DNA of 64,000 bases from Marinobacter psychrophilus. GTDB lineage: Bacteria; Pseudomonadota; Gammaproteobacteria; Pseudomonadales; Oleiphilaceae. Below are positions 9,296 through 52,926 of this stretch, in pieces. A model generated the notes under the pieces. That model did no database searches. It was not told the origin of the DNA and saw nothing but the letters and a program-made list of their open reading frames with translations. Position 1 is the stretch's first letter. Each line of letters starts with the position of its first letter. A program made the position numbers and the translations under genes. Location: the NCBI RefSeq assembly GCF_001043175.1, contig NZ_CP011494.1:3286001-3350000 (forward strand), read 5' to 3'.

Positions 9296-9474
9296 TCTAT
9301 AAAATTTATATTGAATATTGGTTTAAAAACCCGTTCTTCACAACCTTTTTTTGGTGATACCCCAGGTTAGGTAGGCTCTAAACTTGAAATAAAGGCAATG
9401 GAGGTCAACACTCTAGTGAAGAAAACAACACATCTGCGCCAGCGCTTGCAACAGAGCAATTTCGAGTAGCACCT

Positions 9475-10329: not shown

Positions 10330-10344
10330 GAGGAGTACACCGTT

Positions 10345-33098: not shown

Positions 33099-33109
33099 TG
33101 GGGCAGGTC

Positions 33110-34279
33110 CTAACGGAAAACCGCTTCCATACCTTCTGCTTCAAGTGCTTTAGCTCGTGCTTCCATCCAGCCGCTACGGAACGCGTCTTCGCCTTCCGGC
33201 GGGTTGGAACCCATGAAGCTTTCCCAGGTGGTTTTCAGGAGTCCCTGACGTTTAACCAACCCATCCTGATGCGCTTGCATGGCATCGGTCCAATGTCCAA
33301 TTTCCTTGTAATACTCAACAACCGCATCGTGATAAGGAATCACCCACTGCATGTTCTGATTTTCTAGCGAGTAACCCGCATTGCCAGGAGCAGCGTCTTT
33401 GTACTTGTCATGGTCCTCGATCAGCACACGGACCAGATTTCTGGCGGTTTTATCGTCCAGGCTCTCATTGCCGACCAATATGGGATACGGGTAGGTGGCG
33501 CCGATCCACGGGCTGTCCTTGCCATAGTTCTCACCAGCAGCAGACGTTACTTTGTGGGGCTGAAAATACGGCGCCACGGTCTGAAGCCGCTGCCAGCCTT
33601 TTTTATTCTCTGGGTCCAGTTCCGGCCACACGATACCCCTTGGGCTGGCGGACAGTTGCTGAGCGGGCGGTGCCACGCTCATGGTAAACGCGGCGTCAAC
33701 CTGGTTGGCCACAATGCCTTCAAAAGAACGGCCGTAGCCCGGGAATTCGACCCGTTCAACGTCATCCCAAGTCAGGCCCCCAAATGCCAAAAAGGCTTCA
33801 GTGCCAATATTCAGGGCGTCATCACCACGGATGTAAGCCACCCGCTTGCCTTTCAAATCCGCCGGCGTTTTCACATTAATGTCACCTGCAACCGCGACAC
33901 CCAGACCGAAACTGGCGGTAGAGGTGCTAATCAGGCGAATGGACTGCGGCCCCCACTGCGGATCGGCAAACAGCAATACGCCTTCGGAGCCGTAGTAACT
34001 GGCAATGCCACAGGCACAGAGCGGCACCCGCCCCATACGTAGGGGTGTCATTCGGGACACATCATTTTCACCGGGCAGAATGCGCACCGAGGTGCCGTAT
34101 TCATTTTTTAGCAGGTTACCGATGGATACCATCTGGGTATAACCTGCTGACCCGGTGCCGTAGGCCGTCATGGCCAATGTGGAGGGCAATTCAATATTCT
34201 CAGCACTGTGGGCGAAAAATGAGACTGTACTCAAAACACCAATGAGCAAACGTTTTGTGAAAATTGTTGTTTTTATCAC
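33110..34279 (-). CDS. TAXI-family TRAP substrate-binding protein
   Basis: A 389-residue periplasmic binding protein. I choose the GTG at 34279 because CGAGG lies six bases in front and the product then begins MIKTTIFTKRLLIG, a normal signal peptide cut after FAHSA. The family features AYGTGSAGYTQMVSIGNLL and GKRVAYIRGDDALN are present. TAXI proteins bind glutamate, glutamine or other dicarboxylates, but the substrate is not predictable. The fused permease follows. The gene is divergent from an acyl-CoA dehydrogenase operon. Confidence 0.88.
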   Translation of the reverse strand: MIKTTIFTKRLLIGVLSTVSFFAHSAENIELPSTLAMTAYGTGSAGYTQMVSIGNLLKNEYGTSVRILPGENDVSRMTPLRMGRVPLCACGIASYYGSEGVLLFADPQWGPQSIRLISTSTASFGLGVAVAGDINVKTPADLKGKRVAYIRGDDALNIGTEAFLAFGGLTWDDVERVEFPGYGRSFEGIVANQVDAAFTMSVAPPAQQLSASPRGIVWPELDPENKKGWQRLQTVAPYFQPHKVTSAAGENYGKDSPWIGATYPYPILVGNESLDDKTARNLVRVLIEDHDKYKDAAPGNAGYSLENQNMQWVIPYHDAVVEYYKEIGHWTDAMQAHQDGLVKRQGLLKTTWESFMGSNPPEGEDAFRSGWMEARAKALEAEGMEAVFR

Positions 34280-34321
34280 TGAAAACCTCGCGTTATGATT
34301 GTTAATTAACGGCAACTTCTG

Positions 34322-34561: not shown

Positions 34562-35758
34562 ATGAACATAAACTACACGCCGGAGGAGCTCGCCTTCCGG
34601 GATGACGTCCGGGCTTTTCTGGACCAGGCGCTACCGGCAGACATTTCCGCCAAAGTGAAGGGTTTCCGCCACCTGACGAAAGAGGATCACCAGCGCTGGC
34701 AGCAAATCCTCTGCAAACAAGGCTGGTACGCCACGCACTGGCCAGAAGAGTACGGCGGTGTGAAATGGACACCGGTTCAAAAGCATATCTGGGATGAAGA
34801 ATCCTGCCAGTACGGTGTGCCCCGCTCTGTTCCGTTCGGCGTGAACATGGTGGCGCCCGTTATCATCAAGTTTGGCAACGAAAAGCAGAAGCAGACTTAC
34901 CTGCCGCGCATCCTTAGCGGAGAAGATTGGTGGTGCCAAGGCTATTCGGAGCCCGGCGCAGGTTCCGATCTCGCATCGCTGAAAGCCCGCGCTGTGCGCG
35001 AAGGCGACCACTACATTGTGAACGGCCAGAAAACCTGGACCACGCTTGGCCAGCACGCCAACATGATTTTTTGCCTGGTGCGCACCAATACCGAGGTGAA
35101 AGCACAGGAAGGCATTTCCTTCCTGCTGATCGACATGAACACGCCAGGTATCACCGTGCGCCCGATCATCACCCTTGACGGCGAGCACGAAGTGAACGAA
35201 GTCTTCTTTCAAGACGTCAAAGTGCCGGTTGAAAATCGGGTAGGAGAGGAAGACAAAGGCTGGACTTACGCCAAGTTCCTGCTGACTTATGAGCGCACCG
35301 GCCTGGCCGGCATCGGCTTGTCCAAAGCCGCGCTGTCTCACCTGAAGCAACTGGCATCTCGTTGCATCAAGAATGGCCGCCCGCTGATTGAAGATACGTC
35401 GTTCAGCCAGCGCATTGCCCGGGTTGAAATTGACCTGACTGCGGCGACCATCAGCAACTTGCGCATTATTGCTGCGGTTGAGGGCGGCGGCATGCCCGGG
35501 GCTGAAAGCTCCATGCTAAAGGTAAAGGGCACAGAAATTCGCCAAGCGATTAATGACCTTGCACGCAGAGCCATTGGGCCCTATGCCATTCCGTTTGCGG
35601 AAGAAGAACTGAACCTTGATTACGAAGGCGAGTTCCTATCAGACGAAAATGCTGCACCGCTTTCAGCTCAGTACTTCAACAATCGTAAGCTTTCAATTTT
35701 CGGCGGATCCAACGAGATCCAGAAAAACATCGTGTCGAAAATGATTCTCGGGCTTTAA
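34562..35758 (+). CDS. Acyl-CoA dehydrogenase, large subunit type (PimC/FadE-like)
   Basis: A 398-residue FAD acyl-CoA dehydrogenase. It has the FAD motif GYSEPGAGSDLASLKARA near residue 131 and ends in IFGGSNEIQKNIVSKMILGL. The usual Tyr-Glu-Gly catalytic loop is FGGSNEIQ here, so the base is likely elsewhere, as in related heteromeric enzymes. It is followed after ten bases by a second, shorter acyl-CoA dehydrogenase, as in pimeloyl-CoA and steroid side-chain alpha-beta systems. The two probably form a hetero-oligomer. Confidence 0.9.
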   Translation: MNINYTPEELAFRDDVRAFLDQALPADISAKVKGFRHLTKEDHQRWQQILCKQGWYATHWPEEYGGVKWTPVQKHIWDEESCQYGVPRSVPFGVNMVAPVIIKFGNEKQKQTYLPRILSGEDWWCQGYSEPGAGSDLASLKARAVREGDHYIVNGQKTWTTLGQHANMIFCLVRTNTEVKAQEGISFLLIDMNTPGITVRPIITLDGEHEVNEVFFQDVKVPVENRVGEEDKGWTYAKFLLTYERTGLAGIGLSKAALSHLKQLASRCIKNGRPLIEDTSFSQRIARVEIDLTAATISNLRIIAAVEGGGMPGAESSMLKVKGTEIRQAINDLARRAIGPYAIPFAEEELNLDYEGEFLSDENAAPLSAQYFNNRKLSIFGGSNEIQKNIVSKMILGL

Positions 35759-35768
35759 GGAGGCAACC

Positions 35769-36911
35769 ATGGATTTCGGACTCAATGAAGAGCAGCAGAT
35801 GCTGCAGGACACCGTGGCCCGTCTGGTGCGCGGTGAATACAGTTTTGAAAAGCGCCTGGCATACAGTGAAACCGAAGCCGGTTTTAGCGTCGATTTCTGG
35901 AAACAGCTGAGCGAACTGGGACTAACATCGGTCCCATTTTCTGAGGAACTGGGTGGCTTCGGCGGTGGCGGTGTAGAAGTACAGTCGGTTATGACCGAAC
36001 TGGGCCGTGGCCTGTGCCTTGAGCCGTACCTGCAATCGGTCGTTTTTGGCGGTGGCCTTATCAGCCAGGCCGGAAACGATAGTCAGAAGGACGTCTGGTT
36101 AAGCGGTATTGCCAGCGGCGAACTACGGGCAGCCGTCGCACTTCAGGAGCCTCAGAGCTTTTACGACCTGAACGATGTGCAAACCCACGCTGAGAAAAAA
36201 GACGGTGGTTTTGTACTTAATGGACGCAAGGCCGTTGTGATTGGTGGGCACTGTGCTGACCTCATTGTGGTATCCGCTCGCACCTCGGGCGGCACCCGCG
36301 ACACTAACGGCATCAGCCTGTTTGTATTGAAGCCGGATACGGCGGGCATTGAGCGCCGCGTTTACCCGACCATTGACGGTTCCAAAGGCTGTGATATTAC
36401 GCTGAACAATGTTCACGTGGGTGCTGACGCCCTGCTCGGCGAAGAGGGCAGCGCCAGCGAAGTAATCGACTACCAGGCCGGTCGTGCCATTGCGGCGCTA
36501 TGCGCGGAAGCCGTCGGTGTTATGGAAGTCGCCAACGAGCTTACTCTCGACTACCTCAAACAGCGTAAACAGTTTGGCGTACCCATTGGTAAGTTTCAGG
36601 TGCTGCAGCACCGCATGGTCGACATGATGTCTGAACTTGAGCAAGCTCGCTCGATGGCTATTCTGGCCGCCAGCGTGGCAGACGAAGAACAAAGCGATGA
36701 GCGCCGTCGCGCGCTTTCCGCCGCGAAAAATGTCATCGGCCGCAGCGGACAGTTCATTTCAGAACAAGGCATACAATCCCACGGTGGCATTGGCATGACA
36801 TGGGAATACAATTTTGCCCACTACGCCAAGCGTTTGATCATGATCAATCACCAACTGGGTGATGATGACTTCCACTTGGAACGCTATGCGTTTCTTTTAC
36901 AGGCAAGCTAA
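35769..36911 (+). CDS. Acyl-CoA dehydrogenase, small partner (PimD-like)
   Basis: A 380-residue acyl-CoA dehydrogenase-fold protein. The start MDFGLNEEQQMLQDTVARL is typical. The C-terminal end reads SHGGIGMTWEYNFAHYAKRL and lacks the GG-x-EIQ segment, so it may complement the larger partner rather than work alone. In known alpha-beta acyl-CoA dehydrogenases, one subunit contributes catalytic and the other FAD residues. The operon continues with a class II aldolase after about 107 bases, with a hairpin in between. Confidence 0.85.
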   Translation: MDFGLNEEQQMLQDTVARLVRGEYSFEKRLAYSETEAGFSVDFWKQLSELGLTSVPFSEELGGFGGGGVEVQSVMTELGRGLCLEPYLQSVVFGGGLISQAGNDSQKDVWLSGIASGELRAAVALQEPQSFYDLNDVQTHAEKKDGGFVLNGRKAVVIGGHCADLIVVSARTSGGTRDTNGISLFVLKPDTAGIERRVYPTIDGSKGCDITLNNVHVGADALLGEEGSASEVIDYQAGRAIAALCAEAVGVMEVANELTLDYLKQRKQFGVPIGKFQVLQHRMVDMMSELEQARSMAILAASVADEEQSDERRRALSAAKNVIGRSGQFISEQGIQSHGGIGMTWEYNFAHYAKRLIMINHQLGDDDFHLERYAFLLQAS

Positions 36912-36966: not shown

Positions 36967-36988
36967 GGGGTGGATCGCCACCCCTTTG
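36967..36988 (+). terminator. GC-rich hairpin after the paired acyl-CoA dehydrogenases
   Basis: GGGGTGG (36967-36973) pairs with CCACCCC (36978-36984) around a 4-base loop, followed by TTTGTT. It lies about 55 bases past the stop and 31 bases before the aldolase gene. It could be a weak terminator or attenuator within the operon. Confidence 0.55.
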
Positions 36989-37018
36989 TTATACAAAGTC
37001 AGGAATAAGGTGAACAAT

Positions 37019-37780
37019 ATGACAACAAACACCTCGGATACCGATGCGAATACGCTGAAAGCGGAAGAATGGCAGGTTCGCAAAGAGTTAGCTGCGGCCT
37101 ACCGCCTTGTCGCCCTGTTCGGGTGGGATGACCTGGTTTTTACCCACCTTTCCGCCCGAGTACCTGGCCCCGAGCATCACTTTCTTATTAATCCTTACGG
37201 CCTGCTGTTTCACGAGATCACGGCTTCTTCTCTGGTGAAAGTGGACAAAGACGGACAGGTTGTGGCATCCGGAGGCCTTAGCAGGGTGAATCCCGCCGGC
37301 TTTACCATACACAGTGCTGTGCACATGGGGCGCGACGATGCCGGTGCCGTCATGCACCTTCATGCCGCAGATGGTGTAGCGATTTCCGCCCACAGAGACG
37401 GCCTGCTGCCCTTGAGCCAGACAGCCATGCTCTGTTTAGCCCACCTGAGTTACCACGAGTATGAAGGTGTCGCTCTGAACCTGGATGAGCGTGAGCGCCT
37501 GATTCGGGACCTCGGGGATAAATCCATGATGATGCTGCGCAATCACGGTGTTCTGACCGCTGGCAAAGACGTACCGGAAACCTTTACGTACCTGTACTTC
37601 CTGATGAAAGCCTGCGAGATACAGGTCAAAGCACAGAGTTGCGGCCCAGTGCATATGCCCTCCGAGCAGGCTGTCCGAACGACCGCAGAACAGTCACAAT
37701 CTCTCGGTAGCGCAGCGGCGCTCACCTGGCCAGCACTGCTGCGGCTTCTCGACAGCAAAAACCCCGGTTACGCGGTATAG
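37019..37780 (+). CDS. Class II aldolase/adducin family protein
   Basis: A 253-residue protein of the class II aldolase/adducin superfamily. The ATG at 37019 is chosen over one 11 codons earlier because AATAAGGTG is in front and the fold starts soon after. Zn-ligand and active-site features are HLSARVPGPEHHFLINPYG, VMHLHAADGVAIS and LRNHGVLTAGKDVPETF. Members act as aldolases, epimerases or decarboxylases, and some relatives occur in acyl-CoA catabolic clusters with unknown roles. Here it follows the ACAD pair and precedes a MaoC hydratase after 11 bases. Confidence 0.82.
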   Translation: MTTNTSDTDANTLKAEEWQVRKELAAAYRLVALFGWDDLVFTHLSARVPGPEHHFLINPYGLLFHEITASSLVKVDKDGQVVASGGLSRVNPAGFTIHSAVHMGRDDAGAVMHLHAADGVAISAHRDGLLPLSQTAMLCLAHLSYHEYEGVALNLDERERLIRDLGDKSMMMLRNHGVLTAGKDVPETFTYLYFLMKACEIQVKAQSCGPVHMPSEQAVRTTAEQSQSLGSAAALTWPALLRLLDSKNPGYAV

Positions 37781-37791
37781 AAGGGCTCAGT

Positions 37792-38247
37792 ATGGTGGAA
37801 ATACAACTCGATGAGCTGGCCAGTCATAAAGGAAGCCTGTGCTGCTTCAGCCCCTGGCTTACCATCACCCAGAACATGATCGGCGCGTTTGCCGATGCCA
37901 CGGGTGACCACCAATGGATTCACGTGGATGTGGAGCGGGCGAAACGGGAGTCGCCTTGGAAGTGCCCGGTCGCCCATGGGTATTTAACCGTGTCCCTGAT
38001 CTCCCGGCTCAACCCTCAAGCTCTGCGGGTTACGGGCACCAAGGCTACTATCAATTACGGGCTGAACAAACTTCGATTTCCAGCGGCAGTGCCGGTGGGT
38101 TCGGATATTCGCACAAAAGTCGAACTGGTGGATGTTACATCGGTGGACGACAAAAGGATTTTGGCGACTTACAAAACCACCGTAGAAATAAATGGCCAGG
38201 ACAAACCGGCCTGCGTAGTAGAAAACCTCGCTATGTACGTGGCCTGA
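37792..38247 (+). CDS. MaoC-like (R)-specific enoyl-CoA hydratase
   Basis: A 151-residue hot-dog protein. It has the hydratase motif FADATGDHQWIHVDVERAK (residues 33-51), with Asp and His at the expected active-site positions, then CPVAHGYLTVSLI. It probably hydrates a trans-2-enoyl-CoA to the (R)-3-hydroxy product. It is the last gene of the ACAD-pair operon, with a perfect hairpin downstream. Some such proteins instead act on hydroxyacyl or thioester substrates other than fatty acyl-CoA. Confidence 0.87.
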   Translation: MVEIQLDELASHKGSLCCFSPWLTITQNMIGAFADATGDHQWIHVDVERAKRESPWKCPVAHGYLTVSLISRLNPQALRVTGTKATINYGLNKLRFPAAVPVGSDIRTKVELVDVTSVDDKRILATYKTTVEINGQDKPACVVENLAMYVA

Positions 38248-38323: not shown

Positions 38324-39259
38324 CTATTCCCGCCCTTCCAGCGCTGCGCGCATTTTCAGAGTAACCAGCACCGTATTCAGGTGAGGCACAGCGACGCTAT
38401 GGCGCTTGGCTAACGCCACCACGTTACCCAACACGGCCTCCCGTTCAATCGGACGGTCGTTCAGATAGTCCAGCGCCATACTGTTTTTGTAGGCAGGCAT
38501 TTTACGGGTGTTGTCGATGTTCTGATCGATCAACGCCTCATCCATTGGATAGCCCTCTGCCGCAGCGACCTCTATCACCTCGCGCATCATAGCCCGCACC
38601 AGCTCTTCGCCGCCCGTAGTATCCAGCATCGTTAGAGTGTCCGCACCGTTGGCAACAACCGACAATGGGTTAAACGGGGTATTCCAGAGGCATTTGCGCC
38701 AGCGCTCACTCACAACACGCTCAGTCAGATCGCTCTTAATTCCACCTTCTATAAACAGTTGGGACAAAGCCCGGCAGCCCTCATCAATACCTTCCGGATA
38801 ACGCCCCATCACTAACTTGCCGTAGGCTTTGTGCTCAACGACGCCGGATTCTGTGCGGCTTGCGGCAATGAAGGCCAGACAGCTTATAAGAGGGTTCTGC
38901 GGATAGGCATCGGCCAGCTCTTTTTCGATATCCAGGCCGTTTTCGATCAGAACCAGACGGGTTTTCTCACCCATCCAGGGCGCAACCAGTGCAACCCGAT
39001 CCACGCCGGGCAGAACTTTCACGCACAGAATCAGAAAGTCTGGCGTTTCTTCCGGCAAGTCACCATCACGGTATACATGATCGGGCTCGTAGGAAAGGTC
39101 TCCGAGCGGGCTTGTGATTCGAATACCTTGGGCTCTGACCGCATTATAGTCTGAGCGCAATACAGCACTCACGGAACAGCCGGCCTTCTTTAGAATGGCA
39201 CCGTAGAAGCTACCGATAGCGCCGGCACCCACAATTAAAATACTGGGTTTTTTATTCAT
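38324..39259 (-). CDS. 2-dehydropantoate 2-reductase family protein (PanE/ApbA-like)
   Basis: A 311-residue NADPH-dependent reductase. It has the Rossmann motif ILIVGAGAIGSFYGAILK (7-24) and C-terminal ApbA-type helices containing WRKCLWNTPFNPLSVVANG. PanE converts ketopantoate to pantoate, but many paralogs reduce other 2-oxo or beta-oxo acids. It starts inside the end of the CoA ligase gene (8-base overlap) and closes the eight-gene operon, so a role in that pathway is more likely than pantothenate synthesis. Function inferred. Confidence 0.85.
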   Translation of the reverse strand: MNKKPSILIVGAGAIGSFYGAILKKAGCSVSAVLRSDYNAVRAQGIRITSPLGDLSYEPDHVYRDGDLPEETPDFLILCVKVLPGVDRVALVAPWMGEKTRLVLIENGLDIEKELADAYPQNPLISCLAFIAASRTESGVVEHKAYGKLVMGRYPEGIDEGCRALSQLFIEGGIKSDLTERVVSERWRKCLWNTPFNPLSVVANGADTLTMLDTTGGEELVRAMMREVIEVAAAEGYPMDEALIDQNIDNTRKMPAYKNSMALDYLNDRPIEREAVLGNVVALAKRHSVAVPHLNTVLVTLKMRAALEGRE

Positions 39260-40922
39260 GATCTGTCCCTGCCCATTCTTCCTCCTGAAGCGCCCGCCAC
39301 ATCAGCTTGCCCGTGGGGGATTTTGGCAATGCACTCACAAATTCAACAAGGGTGGGCACTTTATAGACCGCCATCTGTTCCTTGCACCAATCCGTAATGT
39401 CCTCAACGCTGGTACTGCCTTCTGCTTCAGGTATGAGCACGATGCAGGCCTTCACCGTTTCCCCACGTTTGGGATCCGGGGCCGAGATAATACACAGCTC
39501 ATGAATGGCAGGGTGTCTGTACATCATGGCCTCAACTTCCGAAGGCCACACTTTGAATCCGGATGCGTTAATCATTCGCTTAAGGCGATCGACCATGAAG
39601 AAGTAACCCTCTTCGTCGTAATACGCGAGGTCGCCGGTACGGAAGAAGCGCTTGCCATCAATTTCGACGAACGCCGCATCGGTTTCGGCCGGCCGGTTCC
39701 AGTAGCCGATGGTCACCTGCGGACCACAGGAAACGATCTCACCGGTTTCACCCGGTCCTTTCTCTTCCAGGGTATCCACATCAATAATCCGGCTGTCCAC
39801 ATCAAACACCGGGATACCCAAACACTGTGCTTTGGGTTTCGCGTTGGGGTTGATGTGGGTTGCGGCCATGGTTTCTGACAAGCCATAGCCCTCAATGTAG
39901 TTGAGACCCGTCAGCCTTTTCAGTTTTTCTGCAACGGCGCCGGGCATGGCGGCACCTCCGCCACCAATCATTTGGAGACTGGAGAGGTCGTATTTTCCAA
40001 TATCCGGACTGGAAAGAAAGTCCACCGCCATGGTAACGATGTTGGCCCAGGCGGTGACCTTGTAGCGTTCAATAAGCCTTAATGCAGTGGTGCGATCCCA
40101 GCGCGTCATAATCACCGCCGTCGAGCCGGCGAAAATCGGCCCGTTCATGGAGCCGGTCATGCCGGTTACATGGAAAAATGGCAGGGTGGCCAGCTGCATG
40201 CTGTCAGAAGTGCTCAGATTCCAGAACACACGGTGTACCGCCGTTGCCATCACCGAGCGATGGGTGTGCATACAGCCTTTTGGTGCACCCGTTGTACCAG
40301 AGCTATAGGGGATGACGGCCAGATCTTCCGGGCCTGCCGTATGTTGTTGAGGGCTAAGGCCCGCCGCCATAGCGCTTTCCCAGCTCACGACGCCCGGAGC
40401 ATCGCCCGACCAGGCAGGGCTTGCGACTTCCGCCGGCAGATCCAGGTCGGTATCAGGCTTAATGTATGTGTTGTAGGAAGCCACCACAATCTGTTCCAGA
40501 TCGGTTTTTCCCAGCAGCGGCGTAATGTATTCAGCCAGTTCCTGGCCTGCCAGGCATACCCGTGAGCCTGTATCCGCAATATAATGATCTAGCTCTGCGG
40601 CCCGGTTCATCGGGTTTATCGGAATCACCACGGCATCTGCCCGCAGAATCGCGTAGTAGGAGATCACATACTGCGGCGAATTCTGCATATACAGCAGCAC
40701 CCGATCACCCTTTTTCACACCCTGCGCCTGCAGGTAACCTGCCATAAACTCCACTTCCGCCAGCAGCCGGCGGTATGTGATGAACGCATCGTAGAAAATG
40801 ATGGCTGTTTGGTCAGGATAGCGCAGGGCCGATATTTCCAGATTGGTAAAAACACTGGTTTTCGGCAAGGTCATGGTCTTGGGCAGATCTGTAGGCCAAA
40901 CCGCATAGTGACGTGTGAACAT
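39252..40922 (-). CDS. AMP-binding acyl-CoA ligase (LvaE/FadD-like)
   Basis: A 556-residue ATP-dependent acyl-CoA synthetase. It has the P-loop PYSSGTTGAPKGCMHTH near residue 196, EGYGLSETMAATH near residue 335 and KSPTGKLMWRAL at the C-terminus. The ATG at 40922 is chosen over one 29 codons earlier because the adenylation fold begins there; CTGGAGA is 12 bases in front. Within the operon with kinase and ACAD11-like genes it would activate the starting acid, as LvaE does for levulinate. The substrate is unknown; short or medium keto/hydroxy acids are possible. Confidence 0.88.
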   Translation of the reverse strand: MFTRHYAVWPTDLPKTMTLPKTSVFTNLEISALRYPDQTAIIFYDAFITYRRLLAEVEFMAGYLQAQGVKKGDRVLLYMQNSPQYVISYYAILRADAVVIPINPMNRAAELDHYIADTGSRVCLAGQELAEYITPLLGKTDLEQIVVASYNTYIKPDTDLDLPAEVASPAWSGDAPGVVSWESAMAAGLSPQQHTAGPEDLAVIPYSSGTTGAPKGCMHTHRSVMATAVHRVFWNLSTSDSMQLATLPFFHVTGMTGSMNGPIFAGSTAVIMTRWDRTTALRLIERYKVTAWANIVTMAVDFLSSPDIGKYDLSSLQMIGGGGAAMPGAVAEKLKRLTGLNYIEGYGLSETMAATHINPNAKPKAQCLGIPVFDVDSRIIDVDTLEEKGPGETGEIVSCGPQVTIGYWNRPAETDAAFVEIDGKRFFRTGDLAYYDEEGYFFMVDRLKRMINASGFKVWPSEVEAMMYRHPAIHELCIISAPDPKRGETVKACIVLIPEAEGSTSVEDITDWCKEQMAVYKVPTLVEFVSALPKSPTGKLMWRALQEEEWAGTDHE

Positions 40923-40947
40923 AATTATTGTTGTCTCCAGGTGTACA

Positions 40948-41727
40948 TCAGCCTGCCAGCATCGCGGACAGATCAAATTCTTTGGTATCCCCGGGCAAGG
41001 GGCCTTCATGTCGCAGGGGCGTAATGGCGACTGCCTTGTCCCTCAGCACGGCCACATCGGAGTCTGGCGCTATGATGTGCCGGGAGTTACGATCAAACCC
41101 CAACCACCAATAAGGTAGGCTGCGGGAATCATGGCCCTCCTTTAGGCGAGCTTGCTGGATGGAACCACTGGACTGCTTACACCAGCGTGCAGAAACGATA
41201 TCTCCGGCCTCGCAGGCAGGAAAGTTCACGTTCCAGGCCCGCTTTTCGCCCGGCTGCCATAGTTTGCGGATGACCGCCTCGCCAAATTGTTCGACGGGCG
41301 CCCAGTCGATACCCTCACGGGACAGAAAGGCCTGGCTTAAGGCAATAGCGGGAATGCTCATATGATGAGCGCTGAGCGCCGCGCCAACCGTACCCGAGTA
41401 CTGCACCGAGTCACTGATGTTGGCTCCGCAATTGACACCTGATAACACAAGATCCGGAGGTATTTCACTGAACCACTGGGCAAGGGAATAAAGCACACAA
41501 TCTGCCGGGGTACCGGAAACCGCGTAGCGTTTATTCCCGGTTTCGTAGACCCGCAACGGGTGGTGTATCGAGATGCTCTGGCCCGCGCCGCTGCGGTCGT
41601 GCTCCGGAGCTACAACCCAGACTTCTTCTGCCAGGTTACGGGCAATCTTTTCCAGCCGCGCCAGCCCTGGCGCGTTAATGCCATCGTCGTTGGTGATGAG
41701 GATGCGCCGAACGATGGGGAATGTCAT
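40948..41727 (-). CDS. surE: SurE-family 5'/3'-nucleotidase (phosphatase)
   Basis: A 259-residue metal-dependent phosphatase of the SurE family. The metal-site ILITNDDGINAPG (9-21) and LSGVNCGANISDSVQYSGTVGAA are present, including the Asn-Asp-Asp and Asn-x-Gly segments. Classic SurE is a stationary-phase nucleotidase, usually near pcm, but here it sits between a kinase and a CoA ligase. The ATG overlaps the end of the kinase gene by four bases (ATGA), so the pair is translationally coupled. A phosphatase acting on phosphorylated pathway intermediates is possible but unproven. Confidence 0.87.
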   Translation of the reverse strand: MTFPIVRRILITNDDGINAPGLARLEKIARNLAEEVWVVAPEHDRSGAGQSISIHHPLRVYETGNKRYAVSGTPADCVLYSLAQWFSEIPPDLVLSGVNCGANISDSVQYSGTVGAALSAHHMSIPAIALSQAFLSREGIDWAPVEQFGEAVIRKLWQPGEKRAWNVNFPACEAGDIVSARWCKQSSGSIQQARLKEGHDSRSLPYWWLGFDRNSRHIIAPDSDVAVLRDKAVAITPLRHEGPLPGDTKEFDLSAMLAG

Positions 41728-42788
41728 GTCAGCGCTCCCGCACTGGCGATTTTCCAGCCGGTTTCGGCCAGCAAGCTGGCGCGTTTGCCTACGTCAAGAG
41801 CATCGGCATTGGCAGCATTACCGTCCAGCGCGCGTCTGTAGACGCCTTGGACGATAGAGGCTAATCGGAACAGCGAAAAGGCGAGGTAAACGTGCCAGTC
41901 TGCAATACTTTCGCGGCCTGTCTTGGCGCAGTAACGAGCGATAATTTCCTGCTCACCCGGTATGCCCAGTGCTTCTAAGTCTTCGCCCTTCAACCCGCGC
42001 ATACCCGGTATATCCGATGGCAGGTGATAAGGCAGGCAGTAGTAGGCCAGATCCGCCAACGGGTGCCCAAGCGTAGAAAGCTCCCAATCCAGAACGGCGA
42101 TCACCTCGGGTTTGTCCGGAGCAAGCATCAGGTTGCCGAAGCGATAGTCACCATGGGCAATAGCACACTCATCGGTTGAAGGCAGGTTTTTGGGCAGCCA
42201 TGCCATAAGTTTATCCATTTCAGGCATTTCGTCGGTTTTGGCCGCCAGGTACTGTTTACTCCAGCGCGAAACCTGGCGTGCCACATAGCCTTCCGGACGA
42301 CCGTAGTCTCCCAGGCCTACTGCGTACACATCCACAGAATGCAGTTCTGCCAAGGTGTCGATAGCGGAATGGTGGGCCAGCAATCTTTCTTTGCAATCCA
42401 GCACTCGCAAGGCTGAATGGCTAACGATGCGGCCTTCCAGAAAGTCCATCACGTAAAAAGGCGTGCCTATAATCTCGCTGTCCTCACACAACACCCGAGC
42501 TTTGGGTACCGGCAGCGATGTGTTCTCCGATAGCGCACGGATAACTTTGTACTCCCGCTCGACCATGTGAGCAGACGGCAACGTTTTTCCGGGTGGTTTT
42601 TTACGCAGGACGAAGCGACCACTGTCGGTATCCAGCAGGAATGTCGGGTTGGACTGGCCGCCCTGGAACTGCTTTACCTCAAGGCGGCTGCCAAAATCCG
42701 GCATAGCTTGCTGAAGCCAGGACAAGAGCCGGGTTTCATCGAATGTGTGAGCTGGGAGGACGTCCACCAGCTCTGGAGTTATGCTCAT
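41724..42788 (-). CDS. Phosphotransferase of the ACAD10/ACAD11 kinase type (LvaA-like)
   Basis: A 354-residue aminoglycoside-phosphotransferase-fold kinase. Catalytic HGDYRFGNLML (near residue 205) and metal-binding LDWELSTLGHPLADLAYYC (near residue 225) closely resemble the kinase domain of human ACAD10/ACAD11 and Pseudomonas LvaA, which phosphorylate 4-hydroxyacyl-CoA. I start at the ATG 42786-42788 because GAAGGC precedes it and the family start MSITPELVDVL fits; an earlier in-frame start is less likely. It is one of eight co-directional genes with an ACAD11-like dehydrogenase. Confidence 0.88.
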   Translation of the reverse strand: MSITPELVDVLPAHTFDETRLLSWLQQAMPDFGSRLEVKQFQGGQSNPTFLLDTDSGRFVLRKKPPGKTLPSAHMVEREYKVIRALSENTSLPVPKARVLCEDSEIIGTPFYVMDFLEGRIVSHSALRVLDCKERLLAHHSAIDTLAELHSVDVYAVGLGDYGRPEGYVARQVSRWSKQYLAAKTDEMPEMDKLMAWLPKNLPSTDECAIAHGDYRFGNLMLAPDKPEVIAVLDWELSTLGHPLADLAYYCLPYHLPSDIPGMRGLKGEDLEALGIPGEQEIIARYCAKTGRESIADWHVYLAFSLFRLASIVQGVYRRALDGNAANADALDVGKRASLLAETGWKIASAGALT

Positions 42789-42845
42789 TTTTTGTGTTGC
42801 CTTCAATTTTGGGTAGCCGCCTCTATTGGTGGTAGCGGTCTGCAA

Positions 42846-42919
42846 ATGGGGGCGCTTTTCTTTCGGGAAAACAACTCGCTGCGCTCAAACATCTTTTCCC
42901 TGCAGAAAAACACCCCCAT
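42846..42919 (-). repeat. Long imperfect inverted repeat between operon genes
   Basis: Arms 42846-42871 and 42894-42919 (26 bases each) pair at 21 positions. Read as minus-strand RNA, two more mismatches become G-U pairs, leaving a three-base internal loop. The 22-base loop contains CTCGCTGCGCTC. It lies between the SDR and kinase genes in the direction of transcription. The wobble pattern favours an RNA function such as processing or stability. Confidence 0.7.
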
Positions 42920-42953
42920 CCGCAGCCCTTGGCACATTTCAGTAGTAGCTGCT

Positions 42954-43721
42954 TTAACAGATGGTTTCGCCGCCGTCGGCGACAATGGTCTGGCCGGTTA
43001 TGTAGGCGCTGGCTTTGGTTGATAGAAATACAGCCAGGCCTGCGATATCTACCGGGTCGCCGATTCTTCTCAGTGGAGTTTTGTCTTCGGCTCGCTTAAC
43101 GCGCACCGGATCTTCCCAGAGTGTACGGGCGAAGTCGGTTTTGATCAGGCCGGGGGCGATGCTGTTGATGCGGATGCCTTTCGGGCCCCACTCCACCGCC
43201 AGGTTTCGGGCCAGTGCAGCTTCTGCTGCTTTGGATACACCGTAGGTTCCGATGGTTGTGTTACCGCGAATTCCGGCGATGCTGGACAGCAACACAACGG
43301 CGCCCTCACCTTTCTCCGCCATCTGCGGTAGCACCATGTTGGTGAGCCAGAAGGTGCCTTTGACGTTGGTGTCCATGATTTTATCCCAGGCCTCGTCGGT
43401 CATTTCGGAGGTGGGGCCATAGACCGGGTTGGTGGCGGCGTTGCATACGAGCACGTCGATACTGCCCCAGGCTTCGTTGGTTTTGTTTACCAGATTTTGA
43501 AGGTCGTCTTTTTTACCAACATGGCAGGGTATCGCTATGGCGTCATAGCCTTTGCCTTTCAGTTCATTCGCCACCTGTTCACAGGCGTCGGCCTTACGAC
43601 TGGAGATAACAACTTTCGCGCCCAGACGGGCCATCTCTTCGGCGATTGACAGACCAATGCCTTTAGTAGAGCCGGTGATCAGGGCTACCTTACCGGTCAT
43701 ATCAAAAAGTGGGTTGTTCAT
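42954..43721 (-). CDS. Short-chain dehydrogenase/reductase
   Basis: A 255-residue classical SDR. The cofactor motif is TGSTKGIGLSIAEE (16-29). The catalytic Ser-Tyr-Lys are in LLSSIAGIRGNTTIGTYGVSKAAEAAL (Ser near 144, Tyr near 157, Lys near 161). It probably reduces or oxidises an acyl-CoA or hydroxyacid in the operon, comparable to LvaD in the lva pathway. It lies between the ACAD11-like gene (67 bases upstream) and the hairpin that precedes the kinase. Specificity is unknown. Confidence 0.88.
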   Translation of the reverse strand: MNNPLFDMTGKVALITGSTKGIGLSIAEEMARLGAKVVISSRKADACEQVANELKGKGYDAIAIPCHVGKKDDLQNLVNKTNEAWGSIDVLVCNAATNPVYGPTSEMTDEAWDKIMDTNVKGTFWLTNMVLPQMAEKGEGAVVLLSSIAGIRGNTTIGTYGVSKAAEAALARNLAVEWGPKGIRINSIAPGLIKTDFARTLWEDPVRVKRAEDKTPLRRIGDPVDIAGLAVFLSTKASAYITGQTIVADGGETIC

Positions 43722-43788
43722 AACTCGGTCCTTATACTCAAAGATTGGGTGCTGGCCGGAAGTGCGCCCACCCGTGGCTTAGCCCTGA

Positions 43789-44991
43789 TTAGCGATACTG
43801 ACGCAGTTCAATCTTGGCAACAGAATCTAAGTGAACTTCATCGGGACCATCCGCCAGCCGCAATGTCCGTACCTTAGCCCAGGCTGAGGCAAGGAAGGTG
43901 TCCTGGCTCACGCCGGCCCCACCGTGCACCTGAATCGCACGATCGAGCACTTTCAGCGCCATGCTCGGAGCAATCACCTTGATCATGGCGATTTCCTGAC
44001 GAGCTACCTTGTTACCCACGGTGTCCATCATGTATGCCGCCTTCAGAGTCAACAGTCGCGCCTGCTCAATCTCGATTCGGCTGCGGGCGATGTCCTTGCG
44101 GATAGAGTCAAAGCTGGAGAGCGGCTTGCCGAATGCCTCGCGTTCGTTGGCACGCTTACACATCAACTCCAGCGCACGTTCCGCGACGCCAATGATCCTC
44201 ATACAGTGGTGGATACGGCCTGGCCCGAGACGGCCCTGGGCGATTTCAAAGCCACGCCCCTCACCTAGCAAAAGGTTGCCAACAGGAACCCGCACGTTTT
44301 CGTAATGAATCTCCGCGTGGCCGTGGGGTGCGTGGTCATAACCAAACACCGTCAGGGAGCGTACTAGTTTCACACCGGGCGCATCTAATGGCACCAGGAT
44401 CATCGACTGCTGCTGGTGCTTAGGCGCGGCAGGATCGGTTTTACCCATCACAATGGCAATTTTACAGGTGGTGGTCATGGCACCCGAAGACCACCATTTT
44501 TTGCCGTTAATCACATATTCATCGCCCTCACGACGGATCTCACAGGCAATATTAGTTGCATCGGAAGACGCTACATCCGGTTCTGTCATGGAAAAGCAGG
44601 AACGGATCTCACCCGCCAGCAGAGGCTTCAGCCACTGCTCTTGCTGTTTATCATTACCGTACCGGGCGATTGTTTCCATATTGCCGGTATCCGGTGCAGA
44701 ACAGTTGAACACCTCCGGGGCCATTTCAGAACGGCCCATGATTTCGCAAAGGTGGGCGTATTCAAAGTTGGTCAGGCCAGCACCCAGATCGCTTTCCGGC
44801 AGGAACAGGTTCCAGAGGCCTTCCGCTTTTGCCTTCGCTTTAAGCTCCTCTATGATCGGAACCGGTGCCCAACGGTTTTCTGCCTTTTTAATCTGTTCGT
44901 GGTGCGTGGACTCGTTGGGATAAATGTTCACGTCCATGAACTCGCTCAACTGCACCTGTAGATTTTTAGCTTTGTCAGACAACTCGAACAT
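43789..44991 (-). CDS. ACAD10/ACAD11-like acyl-CoA dehydrogenase (LvaC-like)
   Basis: A 400-residue acyl-CoA dehydrogenase-fold protein. It shares [51 protein letters not shown] and ADGPDEVH with the dehydrogenase domains of ACAD10/ACAD11, which use this fold for phosphate elimination from 4-phosphoacyl-CoA. The ATG at 44991 follows AAAGAGGAAG; an earlier in-frame start lacks a ribosome site. Its partner kinase is two genes downstream. This split arrangement matches lvaA/lvaC. Direct biochemistry is needed to confirm the substrate. Confidence 0.9.
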
Positions 44992-45066
44992 GTCGGCTTC
45001 CTCTTTATTATTGATTCGATGACCGGCCTTCGCAGCCAACCAGGTTTTTGTTCTATGCACTGAAAA

Positions 45067-45537
45067 TCAGATAGGAACGCCTTCCGGCTTGTCGCTACCA
45101 GACCGCACCCGGAAGGTGCCTTCGGCGATGGCAAGCAGATTGCCTTTACCGTCATGCACTTCGCCGGTGCTGTTAAAAATCCGGGTGCCACCGGCTCGCT
45201 TGCGCCCGGTTACACGAATAGTGCCGCTGGAGCACTGGCCCGTAAACGTTGTGGTCAAAGACAAGGTAATGGCTTTACGCATTCGCCCCGGGAAGGGGCA
45301 GTATGTGCCAGCCTGGGCCATCGCGATATCAACCAGCGACGTCAGTACGCCGCCGTGAATGACACCACCAAGATTTAGATGCTTTGGCTCCAGTTCCAGC
45401 TCAATCACCGCTTCGTTTTCCTCCCAGGAAGCCTGGCGGTAACCGAGCAGGTTATGAAAGCCCGGCAGCTCTGTACCATCGACGTATGCGCTATCAACAT
45501 AGGCGCTATCGACATAAGGAGATTCTTGCTTACTCAT
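45067..45537 (-). CDS. PaaI/hot-dog thioesterase-like protein
   Basis: A 156-residue hot-dog-fold protein with HLNLGGVIHGGVLTSLVDIAMAQAG (near residues 53-77), typical of PaaI-type acyl-CoA thioesterases. It probably releases acyl-CoA or protects CoA pools. Its N-terminus carries three copies of YVDSA (residues 8-22), from three 15-base repeats, an uncommon low-complexity leader. The start overlaps the upstream SDR stop by one base (TAATG), so the two are coupled. The gene is followed by the ACAD11-like gene. Confidence 0.87.
   Translation of the reverse strand: MSKQESPYVDSAYVDSAYVDGTELPGFHNLLGYRQASWEENEAVIELELEPKHLNLGGVIHGGVLTSLVDIAMAQAGTYCPFPGRMRKAITLSLTTTFTGQCSSGTIRVTGRKRAGGTRIFNSTGEVHDGKGNLLAIAEGTFRVRSGSDKPEGVPI
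45472..45516 (-). repeat. Triple 15-base tandem repeat inside the thioesterase gene
   Basis: Three units coding YVDSA-YVDSA-YVDGT lie near the 5' end of the PaaI-like gene. Units one and two differ by two bases. It may be a slippage-prone tract or a linker. Confidence 0.85.
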
Positions 45538-46331
45538 TACACTTTCATTCCTGGCAGGTTTAAAGAGGCGGTGTTGCCGCCATCCACAGGCAGCGCCTGA
45601 CCGGTGATATAGCTGGCATCGTCACTGGCAAAAAACAGAATGGCTGCTGCGATCTCTTCCGGGTCGCCGTAGCGGCGCAATTCACAGCGAGCGCCCAACT
45701 TGTGAGCTTTTTCGTGGGTGCGGGCGTAGTCAAACACCGCTTTTGTCATACCGGTTTCAACCAGGCCCGGGCAGACAGCGTTCACCCGGATATTGTGAAC
45801 GCCAAGGTCACACGCAGCGGTCATGGTGAGGTTGATCACTCCAGCCTTCGAGGCGCTATAAGCGTTGCCCCCTGCACCCGAGCGAATACCGGCAACCGAC
45901 GCTGTATTGACAATGGAACCGCACATGCAGGCCTGCATGTGCGGTGCGACATGCTTTATGAGGAGCATGGTGCCAATCAGATTCACCGCCAACACCGTGT
46001 CCCACTCGTCTCGCTCGTTTTCGATTACCGGTGGATGGCCTTTCCCTGTGCTGGCAATGCCAGCGATGTTGCACAGGACGTCAATTTTTCCGAACGCGTC
46101 CATAGCGTCGCTGACAAGTTTTTTCACCTGCGCCTCATCGGCAACGTCGACGAGGCGAAAGAGGTACTCAGCCCCTTCCGGCATTAGATTCCCGGTCTCA
46201 ACCAAGCCCAATTCGGAGGTATCCGCCATGATCACTTGGGCACCCTCACGGGCCAGCCGCAAGGCGGTTGCCCGACCTATGCCACTGCCTGCTCCGGTAA
46301 CAATAGCCGCCCGACCATCAAAACGCCCCAT
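45537..46331 (-). CDS. Short-chain dehydrogenase/reductase, first gene of the operon
   Basis: A 264-residue SDR with the NAD(P) motif VTGAGSGIGRATALRL (12-27) and the catalytic ASVAGIRSGAGGNAYSASKAG (Ser, Tyr and Lys in place). It is the first gene of the minus-strand operon; its promoter is shared with the divergent acyl-CoA ligase. It is coupled to the PaaI-like gene by a TAATG overlap. It may oxidise a hydroxyacyl or keto intermediate. Confidence 0.88.
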   Translation of the reverse strand: MGRFDGRAAIVTGAGSGIGRATALRLAREGAQVIMADTSELGLVETGNLMPEGAEYLFRLVDVADEAQVKKLVSDAMDAFGKIDVLCNIAGIASTGKGHPPVIENERDEWDTVLAVNLIGTMLLIKHVAPHMQACMCGSIVNTASVAGIRSGAGGNAYSASKAGVINLTMTAACDLGVHNIRVNAVCPGLVETGMTKAVFDYARTHEKAHKLGARCELRRYGDPEEIAAAILFFASDDASYITGQALPVDGGNTASLNLPGMKV

Positions 46332-48992: not shown

Positions 48993-50039
48993 ATGAATAT
49001 CCTCGCCAAAACACGCAAATCCCTGATCGTTTACGCGTCTGCCCTTACCCTCGGAATTTCAGCTGCCTTGAGCGCCGCGCCTGCCGCCGCCCAGGAAACG
49101 TTCACATGGAGAGTGCAATCGCACTGGCCAGGCGCCAGTAGCTCCTATACAGACAGCCTGGTAAGGCTGCAACGAGTTCTGGACGAGCGCACAGACGGGC
49201 GTTTGAAACTCAAGCTTTACGAAGCCGGCGCGCTGTTCAAGGCCCAAGACACGTTCAACGCTGTAAGCCGTGGCATTCTGGAAATGGGCACAATCTCTCC
49301 GTCTTATGCTCAAGACAAAGTTTCTCTTGCAGGCATTGCCTCCGGTTTGCCCTTTGCATTCCGTAACGTGTGGGAAGCTGAATACTTCCATCAGGGTATG
49401 GGTTTTGAGCAGATGCTTCGTGATGAAGCGGCAGAACACGACGTTTACTGGGCGACCGATAAGGTGTATCCCACTGAAATGGTGATCAAAGAGCCGATCA
49501 ATAGCTGGGACGATTTTACCGGTCTGAAGATCCGCTCCTCAGGTGTTCTGCAAAAGTTCCTGACCGAAGCGGGTGCTGCAGCATCTTATATTCCAGGCAG
49601 CGAACTTTACTCCGCGCTTGACTCAGGCATTGTTGACGGTGCCCATTGGGGTGCCGCTCAGGGTGCCTCCAGCATGGCTCTGTATGAAGTGGCCAAGTAC
49701 CACGTTCAACCAGCCCTGAACATCGCGGGCACTGATGTCATCATTGTCAGCATGAAGGCACTGAACAAATTGCCAGAGGACATGCAAAAGATCGTCAAAG
49801 ATACACTCGATGAGCAATTCTGGGTTCGTACCAACGAATACCTTTATAAGGAGCGCATCACCCTGGCCAAGGTGATCGCCGAACAGGGCGTGCAGGTAAA
49901 CGTTCTGCCGGATGACGTTCAGGACAAACTGACAAAAGCCGCACAGGCAATGTGGGACGAGGAAGGCGAGCGTAGCGACAACGCCAAGAAGGCGTTGGAT
50001 ATGCTGAAGGGCTATCTGACCGAACTCGGCTACCTCTAA
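48993..50039 (+). CDS. TRAP transporter DctP-type solute-binding protein
   Basis: A 348-residue periplasmic protein. The signal peptide runs to about residue 30 (ALSAAPAAAQ). The mature part has FTWRVQSHWPGA and the ligand-arginine region GLKIRSSG near residue 175 typical of DctP proteins, which bind organic acids through a conserved arginine. It is separated from the DctQ and DctM genes by a terminator-like hairpin that may raise binding-protein levels. Substrate unknown; the neighbourhood suggests an organic acid fed to acyl-CoA metabolism. Confidence 0.92.
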   Translation: MNILAKTRKSLIVYASALTLGISAALSAAPAAAQETFTWRVQSHWPGASSSYTDSLVRLQRVLDERTDGRLKLKLYEAGALFKAQDTFNAVSRGILEMGTISPSYAQDKVSLAGIASGLPFAFRNVWEAEYFHQGMGFEQMLRDEAAEHDVYWATDKVYPTEMVIKEPINSWDDFTGLKIRSSGVLQKFLTEAGAAASYIPGSELYSALDSGIVDGAHWGAAQGASSMALYEVAKYHVQPALNIAGTDVIIVSMKALNKLPEDMQKIVKDTLDEQFWVRTNEYLYKERITLAKVIAEQGVQVNVLPDDVQDKLTKAAQAMWDEEGERSDNAKKALDMLKGYLTELGYL

Positions 50040-50128: not shown

Positions 50129-50674
50129 ATGAGTGTGCTGACCGCATTCATAAGCGGGGTTACCCGTCTTAATGATTTTGTCGGACGCTGGGTAGCCCTA
50201 CTCGTTTTCGCCATGTTCGCGTTCCTGCTGCTGGAAGTGGGCTTCCGTTATCTGCTTGACGCACCCACAGTCTGGACCAACGAGCTTACTCAAATGTTGT
50301 TCGGCGTTTATGCGGTAATGTCCGGAGGCTACATCATGGCTCATCGGGGCCACGTCAATGTCGATCTTCTGCACTCGCAACTATCGCCTCGCAAGCGGGC
50401 GTTTATGGACATCGTCACCTCATTGATATTTTTCATTTTTACTCTTGCTCTGCTGTGGTTTGGCATTGACATGGCCAGCGAATCCATCGCCAGTTGGGAG
50501 ACCTCTTACTCTGCCTGGAACCCACCGATCTGGCCGGCCAAGCTTGCCATTCCTATCGGAACAGGACTGCTGGTACTGCAGGGCTTGGCAAAACTCCTTG
50601 AAGACATTGCCATTGCGTTCAACCTGGATTACTACCGCCCGGATCACAGCACTTCTAAAGGAGAGCAGTCGTGA
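50129..50674 (+). CDS. TRAP transporter small permease subunit (DctQ)
   Basis: A 181-residue membrane protein with four helices typical of DctQ. The start MSVLTAFISGVTRLNDFVGRW and the LLEVGFRYLLDAPTVWTNELTQMLFG stretch (residues 31-56) fit the family. It pairs with DctM to carry solute into the cell, driven by a Na+ or H+ gradient. It overlaps the next gene by four bases (GTGA), so the two are translated together. CTCCTGGAGAATGC precedes its ATG. Confidence 0.91.
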   Translation: MSVLTAFISGVTRLNDFVGRWVALLVFAMFAFLLLEVGFRYLLDAPTVWTNELTQMLFGVYAVMSGGYIMAHRGHVNVDLLHSQLSPRKRAFMDIVTSLIFFIFTLALLWFGIDMASESIASWETSYSAWNPPIWPAKLAIPIGTGLLVLQGLAKLLEDIAIAFNLDYYRPDHSTSKGEQS

Positions 50675-52109: not shown

Positions 52110-52799
52110 ATGAATGCAATCAGCAAGCCTACGATGTCTCTGGTAGATGCCATTTTTCAGCGGCGCTCCGTCCGTGGTTTTTTGCCAAAAACGGTTCCTG
52201 AAGAAACCATGCGCGACGTGTTCGAACAGGCACAGCAAGCACCGTCAAACTGCAACACTCAACCTTGGTATACCGTGGTTGCTTCTGGCGATCTAAGAGA
52301 CTCATTGCGAGATCAGTTTATCGGTCGGGCAATGGCGGGAACACCCTCTGAACCTGATTTTAGCTACGTCAGCAAATTTGAGGGCGTTTATCGCGGCCGG
52401 CAAGTTGACTGCGCCGCAGCACTGTACGGAGAAATGGAAATTGCCCGCGACGACAAAGCTGGACGTAGCCGAGCGGCGCTGCGCAACTTCGAGTTCTTTG
52501 ATGCGCCACATGTAGCCTTTCTTTGCATGGATCGCTCTTTTGGCGCCACCATCGCAGTCGATGTCGGCATCTATGCCCAAACTCTGATGCTGGCAATGAC
52601 GGCTCAAGGCATCAGTTCCTGTGCTATGGGTAGTTTGCGATCCCATCCTGACCTGGTTCGTACTGCCTTTGGACTGGAGGAAAACATCGGCGTGGTGTTT
52701 GGTATCTGTTTTGGTTACGACGACTCAGAGGTGAAGGCAAACAACACGCGCACTAGCCGCGTCTCTCTTGATGAGACGGTGGTATTCAAGGACCACTAA
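52110..52799 (+). CDS. Nitroreductase family FMN enzyme
   Basis: A 229-residue nitroreductase-fold protein. The FMN-contact regions are RRSVRGFLPKTVPEETMRD near the N-terminus, APSNCNTQPW (about residues 45-54) and GISSCAMGSLRSHPDLVR near the C-terminus. Such proteins reduce nitro compounds, quinones or other substrates with NAD(P)H. The start at the ATG 52110 is preferred to the TTG at 52098. It stands alone between the TRAP operon and the DUF3422 gene. Substrate unknown. Confidence 0.9.
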   Translation: MNAISKPTMSLVDAIFQRRSVRGFLPKTVPEETMRDVFEQAQQAPSNCNTQPWYTVVASGDLRDSLRDQFIGRAMAGTPSEPDFSYVSKFEGVYRGRQVDCAAALYGEMEIARDDKAGRSRAALRNFEFFDAPHVAFLCMDRSFGATIAVDVGIYAQTLMLAMTAQGISSCAMGSLRSHPDLVRTAFGLEENIGVVFGICFGYDDSEVKANNTRTSRVSLDETVVFKDH

Positions 52800-52810
52800 T
52801 GTTGAACACC

Positions 52811-52844
52811 GAGCAGAGAAACGCTTGCTAGGCCCTCTCTGCTC
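52811..52844 (+). terminator. Hairpin after the nitroreductase gene
   Basis: GAGCAGAGA (52811-52819) pairs with TCTCTGCTC (52836-52844), a 9-bp stem with a 16-base loop. No strong T-tract follows. Probable transcription end. Confidence 0.55.
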
Positions 52845-52926
52845 GCTATTGTCAAACACCTCTTCCGGGTTACTATTCAGGGCATCCTTTACCACTTCTT
52901 TGTCTAACAAAAGGATCAGCCCCAGC

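Follow-up and report, generated by a model that had tools for sequence, protein, structure and literature searches.

The window analysed here is a 64,000-nucleotide stretch of the Marinobacter psychrophilus genome, and it contains an operon in which a SurE-family phosphatase gene adjoins a kinase gene related to mammalian ACAD10 and ACAD11. Eight open frames, all on the minus strand, run from 46331 to 38324 in the order SDR1, PaaI, ACAD, SDR2, kinase, SurE, ligase and PanE (Table 1; L and G numbers are our labels for loci and genomes). Pfam and NCBIfam assigned these frames to short-chain dehydrogenase (SDR), 4HBT/hotdog, acyl-CoA dehydrogenase, SDR, APH kinase, SurE, AMP-binding ligase and ApbA/PanE, respectively, confirming the co-directional gene order and families given in an earlier note on this DNA. 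That note had also described the genes as often overlapping. With three start codons re-placed according to homologue starts, and so presumably lying near 44991 (ACAD), 42788 (kinase) and 40922 (ligase, for which the domain scans were run from 40877), three pairs do overlap, by 4 bases (kinase/SurE), 8 bases (ligase/PanE) and 1 base (SDR1/PaaI), but spacers of 67 to 165 bases separate PaaI from ACAD, ACAD from SDR2 and SDR2 from the kinase. With these start choices the internal gaps are at most 165 bases and no LvaB-sized gene fits within the operon, in agreement with the reported absence of lvaB. Most mapped SurE loci have a PaaI-like gene (L074, L181 and L183 gave no match). The PanE-like gene is present here as described, but its linkage in related loci is patchy; its closest solved structure is 3i83.

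Table 1. Genes of the window operon, genes at lower coordinates, and two further kinase clusters of the same genome.
Feature	Position	Strand	Assignment or content
SDR1, short-chain dehydrogenase	45537..46331	-	PF13561/PF00106; in many, not all, related loci
PaaI-like hotdog acyl-CoA thioesterase	45067..45537	-	PF03061; TIGR00369 above cut-off
ACAD10/11-type dehydrogenase (ACAD)	43789..44991	-	57.5% identity to ACAD11 ACAD domain; HCMR and other mapped residues
SDR2, candidate 4-oxo/4-hydroxyacyl-CoA dehydrogenase (putative role)	42954..43721	-	PF13561
APH-fold kinase, ACAD10/11 type, predicted 4-hydroxyacyl-CoA kinase	41724..42788	-	44.5% identity to ACAD11 kinase domain
SurE-family phosphatase	40948..41727	-	PF01975 189.5 bits; TIGR00087 175.5 bits (cut-off 135.1)
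Acyl-CoA ligase (PRK08314 subfamily)	39252..40922	-	NF006181 852.5 bits (cut-off 705); PF00501
PanE/ApbA-like reductase, facultative member	38324..39259	-	TIGR00745 209.7 bits (cut-off 141.35)
PimC/PimD-like acyl-CoA dehydrogenase pair (putative role)	34562..36911	+	TIGR03204 497.7 bits, TIGR03203 398.3 bits, both below cut-offs
Class II aldolase-like protein and MaoC-like hydratase (putative roles)	36986..38247	+	PF00596; PF01575
L063, second cluster of the genome (C1:2747000-2766000)	5887-10743		ACAD, SDR, kinase, histidine phosphatase, SDR
L250, third cluster of the genome (C1:2380500-2396000)	2482-10688		Kinase, DUF6285, histidine phosphatase, HCMR ACAD, SDR; PrpR-type sigma-54 regulator and ligase adjoining

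The assignment of the kinase and the dehydrogenase to the ACAD10/11 type was borne out by comparison with solved structures. The best solved relatives of the kinase were 3dxp (348 bits) and full-length ACAD11 (297 and 293 bits), and those of the dehydrogenase were three ACAD11 sequences (492, 489 and 484 bits) followed by the putative acyl-CoA dehydrogenase 4hr3 (459 bits) and then, at 143 bits, by a short-chain acyl-CoA dehydrogenase. Identity to the corresponding ACAD11 domains extended over 226 of 393 columns in the dehydrogenase and 153 of 344 columns in the kinase. The ACAD11 residues mutated or modelled, as far as the available text of PMC12440821 gives them, comprise, in the dehydrogenase, HCMR together with a pair of arginines upstream of it and the catalytic aspartate and, in the kinase, D220, N225, R176 and R86. 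By alignment, R254, R259, H262, R265 and D381 of our dehydrogenase correspond to ACAD11 R626, R631, H634, R637 (HCMR) and D753, and D214, N219 and R171 of our kinase correspond to D220, N225 and R176; the column mapped for R86, a residue of the CoA-binding cavity, holds Phe in the ACAD11 chain itself and Tyr here, so that the numbering is unmatched at this position. In a chosen set of 47 loci the HGD-x4-N motif was present in 47/47 kinases, HCMR in all 43 ACADs found and the DGP[D/N]EVH stretch in 40 of these 43. The two proteins belong, on these alignments, with ACAD10/11, and the matching residues and motifs therefore support a predicted 4-hydroxyacyl-CoA chemistry. Mammalian ACAD10 and ACAD11 share with the Marinobacter cluster the kinase and the HCMR-type dehydrogenase with equivalent residues, and the ACAD10 kinase is likewise accompanied by a phosphatase-fold (HAD) domain. 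The Marinobacter cluster differs in having separate genes, in having as partner a SurE with catalytic-type residues kept, and in adding a ligase, SDRs and a thioesterase. No kinase-dehydrogenase fusion is present in the operon, where SDR2 lies between the two genes, and separate frames were also seen in the mapped bacterial loci.

The genome has two SurE genes, and the SurE of the operon is 35% identical to the other, housekeeping one; its named relatives at 65-92% identity are almost all from Marinobacter. When 17 kinase-linked rows were compared with 17 others, D14, D15, S46 and N103, which we take to be the catalytic-type positions of SurE, were kept in at least 94% of both sets, while nine positions set the kinase-linked rows apart, and two of these, Q50 and S107, lie within the conserved loops. 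The operon SurE has the same family and the same catalytic-type residues as the housekeeping SurE, but differs from it at Q50 and S107 and in forming a separate clade beside the kinase.

We assessed the association of this SurE with the kinase in a sample of 100 Marinobacter genomes, counting the kinase at E 1e-80 or better. The kinase was present in 63 genomes and an operon-type SurE, at 64-100% identity and interrupted in one case (G308), in 58, which comprised 58 of the 63 kinase-bearing genomes and 0 of the 37 kinase-free ones (Fisher value 2.5e-22, which ignores shared ancestry). The two genes adjoin in all 58 SurE-bearing genomes, with a median gap of 14 bases and a largest gap of 349 bases beside a partial kinase match. 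The housekeeping SurE appeared as a separate match at 31-46% identity among the matches listed, higher values coming from short alignments. Outside the genus, the block PaaI-ACAD-SDR2-kinase-SurE-ligase was found in Salinisphaera (L070 and L071, and L181 without a PaaI match), in Stutzerimonas/Pseudomonas (L072, L073 and L075; PaaI and ACAD were not found in L074) and in two more genomes of the same order (L182, and L183 without a PaaI match), SDR2 being 72-82% identical to its counterparts in L070-L075. The SurE-kinase order is thus not unique to this genome, and because the block recurs in other genera and the two genes are neighbours in every SurE-bearing Marinobacter genome, the gene order is not a matter of chance. 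Among 274 genomes sampled from the class, a SurE more than 50% identical to that of the operon was found only in the genome of the window and in G171 (the Salinisphaera of L070), so this SurE type is rare. We also mapped 80 SurE loci with up to 10 kb of DNA on each side, some with less. Operon-type SurEs accounted for 22 of them (seven by tree placement and 15 from Marinobacter by at least 76% identity to the operon SurE), and the kinase stands beside SurE in 20 of these 22 and was seen in none of the other 58 within the DNA covered. For the two that remain, L078 and L085, a kinase of the same type is encoded at another place in the genome.

These distributions bear on the possibility that SurE keeps a nucleotide role, in which it would hydrolyse AMP released by the ligase or the 3′-phosphates of CoA-type molecules and so draw the pathway forward or keep nucleotides in balance. 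In most mapped SurE loci (not in L078) the ligase gene comes next after SurE, and the family models are named for 5'/3'-nucleotidases, as this explanation would have it. However, the operon-type SurE tracks the kinase, being absent from the kinase-free genomes of the genus, the two loop positions differ from other SurEs, and histidine phosphatases adjoin the kinase in two further clusters of the genome (see below). We consider a nucleotide role unlikely, though far from negligible.

Phylogenetic trees placed the association in one lineage. In a tree of 33 SurEs, the 14 kinase-linked rows fell on one side of a branch (100/99), with L078 placed in their midst, and the housekeeping SurE of the genome and ten alphaproteobacterial SurEs lay outside this clade. 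Three further SurEs (L090-L092, from Cupriavidus, Nitrospirillum and P. viridiflava) were near but outside it, with no such kinase nearby. In a tree of 47 kinases, which gave a long-branch warning for the outer rows, 33 SurE-linked kinases grouped with five kinases without SurE and with that of Marinobacter piscensis (100/99), and three separate changes are needed to account for the five SurE-free kinases. These five come from Marinobacter genomes (L050-L054) that keep ACAD, SDR2 and ligase, have the ligase directly after the kinase, within about 110 bases, and show one SurE only, of the housekeeping type. A replacement phosphatase in the place of SurE was rejected for these loci, as there is no room between kinase and ligase. 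In our reading of the trees, SurE joined the operon once and later dropped out on at least three occasions without loss of the pathway; a loss with later regain is a further possibility. In M. piscensis the kinase groups with SurE-linked Marinobacter kinases, and at its locus (L180) kinase, ACAD and SDR1 are lined up with a 4HBT_2 thioesterase-like gene and with a histidine phosphatase gene located 2.9 kb upstream of the kinase, an arrangement that we read as a change of phosphatase neighbour from SurE to histidine phosphatase. Together, gene neighbourhoods and trees indicate a SurE link that is conserved, specific to one clade and probably useful, yet dispensable. That SurE is missing several times where the rest of the pathway is intact suits an auxiliary role, not an indispensable step. 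A passenger that entered the operon a single time and has since been carried along by linkage, without contributing to the pathway, would likewise leave a single SurE clade and could be absent from five loci through three changes, interrupted in one genome (G308) and parted from the kinase in M. piscensis. Against such a passenger, SurE is kept beside the kinase, with its catalytic-type residues, in three named families, and phosphatases of another fold recur beside related kinases; we regard it as slightly less probable still than a nucleotide role.

The earlier note had called a SurE phosphatase coupled to the kinase an unusual addition; a phosphatase in this place is not in itself unusual, since histidine phosphatases accompany such kinases in two other clusters of the same genome, in many relatives and in one published lva cluster. 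The two clusters, L063 and L250 (Table 1), were found by mapping the DNA around the top five of the 12 APH matches in the genome; at two more of these five (L251 and L252) no ACAD or SDR of these kinds was seen. In L063 the kinase gene and the phosphatase gene after it overlap by a single base, and the ACAD has HCMR. Dehydrogenases of the L063 kind, 54-57% identical to the window ACAD, occur in most sampled genomes of the genus, among the matches listed. All three kinase/HCMR clusters found in the genome carry a phosphatase gene. Six His_Phos_1 matches in the 4.0 Mb genome, two of which share a gene, correspond to about five such genes, and the chance of meeting one in any 11 kb is about 1.4%. 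Among the best 30 loci with L063-type kinases, covered for 1.5 kb on each side, a histidine phosphatase frame was present in 23, representing 11 of 12 genera, and missing from 7, many loci coming from one genus so that the counts are not independent. Kinases of the window type were sampled at 40 loci, mostly with about 5 kb on each side (38 from the upper rows of the match list, passing over many near relatives, and two others), and showed a histidine phosphatase in ten and SurE in three. Pfam confirmed four histidine phosphatases (L063, L195, L203 and L250), and the rest were recognised by a profile made from the matches of the L063 protein, the weakest profile matches being L194, L195 and L203 (E 2e-8 to 8e-6). 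When Pfam was run on 20 further frames near kinases, His_Phos_1 was found in L195 and L203, both flagged beforehand by the profile, and in none of the remaining 18, ten of which had no Pfam match at all and may be wrong frames. L063, L250 and their relatives thus resemble the window operon in combining an APH kinase, an HCMR dehydrogenase and a clustered phosphatase gene, and differ from it in that the phosphatase is of the His_Phos_1 superfamily and not SurE. At the level of gene neighbourhoods, the SurE link is one case of a broader kinase-phosphatase pairing that was found but is not universal.

One published bacterial parallel was found among open-licence PMC papers, the lva-like cluster of P. 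citronellolis, in which, according to the available text of PMC6692424, the lvaA homologue has a histidine phosphatase as neighbour and lvaB was not found; our searches of the same literature gave no report known to us to tie SurE to such a pathway. The authors suggested that the histidine phosphatase removes phosphate from 4-phosphovaleryl-CoA (PMC6692424), which raises the possibility that the phosphatase beside our kinase is a productive step, acting in place of the ACAD. However, ACAD10/11 convert 4-phosphoacyl-CoA to 2-enoyl-CoA in vitro (PMC12440821, available text), plain phosphatase action would merely reverse the kinase, and the 5 of 63 kinase-bearing Marinobacter genomes without SurE keep ACAD, SDR2, kinase and ligase. 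A productive role for the phosphatase is therefore, in our judgement, very improbable.

Considering all this evidence, we give a probability of roughly 0.5 to the reading that the operon encodes an ACAD10/11-type route, split over separate genes, by which 4-hydroxy (or 4-oxo) acids are broken down, with SurE as an ancillary phosphatase. We infer its substrate, the order of reactions and the activity and role of SurE as follows. The ligase would convert the acid to its acyl-CoA, an SDR would install the 4-hydroxy group, the kinase would phosphorylate this group at the expense of ATP, and the HCMR-type dehydrogenase would eliminate phosphate to give a 2-enoyl-CoA for β-oxidation. SurE would dephosphorylate free 4-phospho-acids, arising when 4-phosphoacyl-CoA is cut by the thioesterase or by chance hydrolysis, or alternatively stalled 4-phosphoacyl-CoA, and the product would re-enter the pathway. 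In cells with ACAD10, free 4-phosphohydroxyhexanoate appears, which the authors ascribe to likely hydrolysis of the CoA adduct (PMC11342911, available text), and free 4-hydroxyvalerate is not phosphorylated by ACAD10/11 as far as the available text of PMC12440821 reports. The thioesterase gene of the operon makes 4-phospho-acids a plausible waste, unusable by kinase or dehydrogenase, which a phosphatase would return. The suggestion of a SurE safeguard in the earlier note agrees with the repeated absence of SurE and with the free 4-phospho-acid of ACAD10 cells, but the activity of SurE is a prediction; overall, the observation made in that note was confirmed and its interpretation was partly supported.

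The ACAD10 parallel also allows for SurE restraining the kinase by contact instead of catalysis. The HAD domain of ACAD10 was first thought to dephosphorylate such intermediates, yet it showed negligible phosphatase activity, and its mutation raised kinase activity (PMC11342911, available text). However, the same source describes this HAD domain as lacking one aspartate of the DxD motif, whereas SurE keeps its catalytic-type residues, and we consider restraint by contact quite improbable.

Several observations weigh against the reading of SurE as an ancillary phosphatase of a split ACAD10/11-type route. In the sample of 40 window-type kinase loci, neither SurE nor a histidine phosphatase was seen in 27, other phosphatase families not having been searched systematically. 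In L078 (9914-11771, Salinisphaera) a SurE of the clade lies beside a PanE-like gene with no kinase in 10 kb; the second locus of this genome, L181, has kinase, ACAD, SDR2, its own SurE and ligase. At L085 of M. piscensis the SurE stays with the ligase, with kinase, ACAD and SDR1 located elsewhere (L180). In G308 the SurE frame is interrupted (L059, 9321-10078) and the ACAD of the window type is about 130 kb away from the kinase. The SurE family models carry the name 5'/3'-nucleotidase, and the activity that we assign to the operon SurE is a predicted one. Furthermore, we know of no phosphatase gene in the lva operon of P. putida.

The identity of the substrate was approached through neighbouring genes and the lva systems. 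The lva operon of P. putida and the lva-like cluster of P. citronellolis share ligase, SDR, kinase and dehydrogenase with the window operon. The latter differs from the P. citronellolis cluster in having SurE in place of the histidine phosphatase, and from the lva operon in having no LvaB-sized gene and no LvaR-type regulator among scanned neighbours, as no LvaR-type sigma-54 regulator was found among the genes scanned at 28554-55019 (48993-50039 excepted). In contrast, a sigma-54 regulator with a PrpR_N domain sits in L250, and because L250 resembles the lva cluster of P. citronellolis, levulinate is likely handled there. Levulinate has become less likely as a substrate of the window operon for this reason; it was set aside and is probably not what the operon handles. 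The DUF6285 protein of L250 may, as a guess, be an LvaB-type partner; no paper on DUF6285 with a phosphotransferase was found in the open-licence PMC literature. As for the PanE-like reductase, pantoate carbon 3 carries no hydrogen, and pantoate-type substrates were therefore rejected on chemical grounds.

The genes around the operon point to another kind of acid. A PimC/PimD-like dehydrogenase pair, a class II aldolase-like protein and a MaoC-like hydratase are encoded on the opposite strand (Table 1), and a 3-oxoadipyl-CoA-type thiolase also lies near the operon. Homologues of the PimC/PimD-like pair occur in the Salinisphaera unit (L015/L070, L071), which there also includes a FadJ-type protein, and in Stutzerimonas (L072, L073 and L075) the gene after the ligase is homologous to the aldolase-like one, which also has a counterpart in L182. 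An ABC importer with a Peripla_BP_6 binding protein is close by in the relative L015, and LivK-like matches are close in L076, L081, L085, L088, L093 and L094. These neighbours suggest, as candidate substrate, a 4-hydroxy or 4-oxo acid that is longer or carries substituents. The operon is flanked on one side by a TAXI-type TRAP receptor and a DctM protein (31029-34315) and on the other by the DctQ and DctM genes of a second TRAP system (50129-51981), followed by a DUF3422 protein and then an inositol monophosphatase family protein (52768-55019).

The recurrence of SurE, histidine phosphatases and the HAD domain of animal ACAD10 suggests, tentatively and with odds somewhat below even, that an "eraser" phosphatase, taken from one or another of several unrelated folds, has repeatedly become the partner of ACAD10/11-type kinases, and that the SurE of this clade is a dedicated 4-phospho-acid/4-phosphoacyl-CoA phosphatase. 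The purpose of the HAD domain is unsettled in the study of ACAD10 (PMC11342911, available text). Bacteria in which phosphatases of unrelated kinds, their catalytic-type residues intact, stand beside such kinases offer a direct test of whether this chemistry makes a phosphorylated dead end that needs clearance. If it does, and the SurE of this clade clears it, the clade would have a non-nucleotide metabolic job with a defined metabolic substrate.

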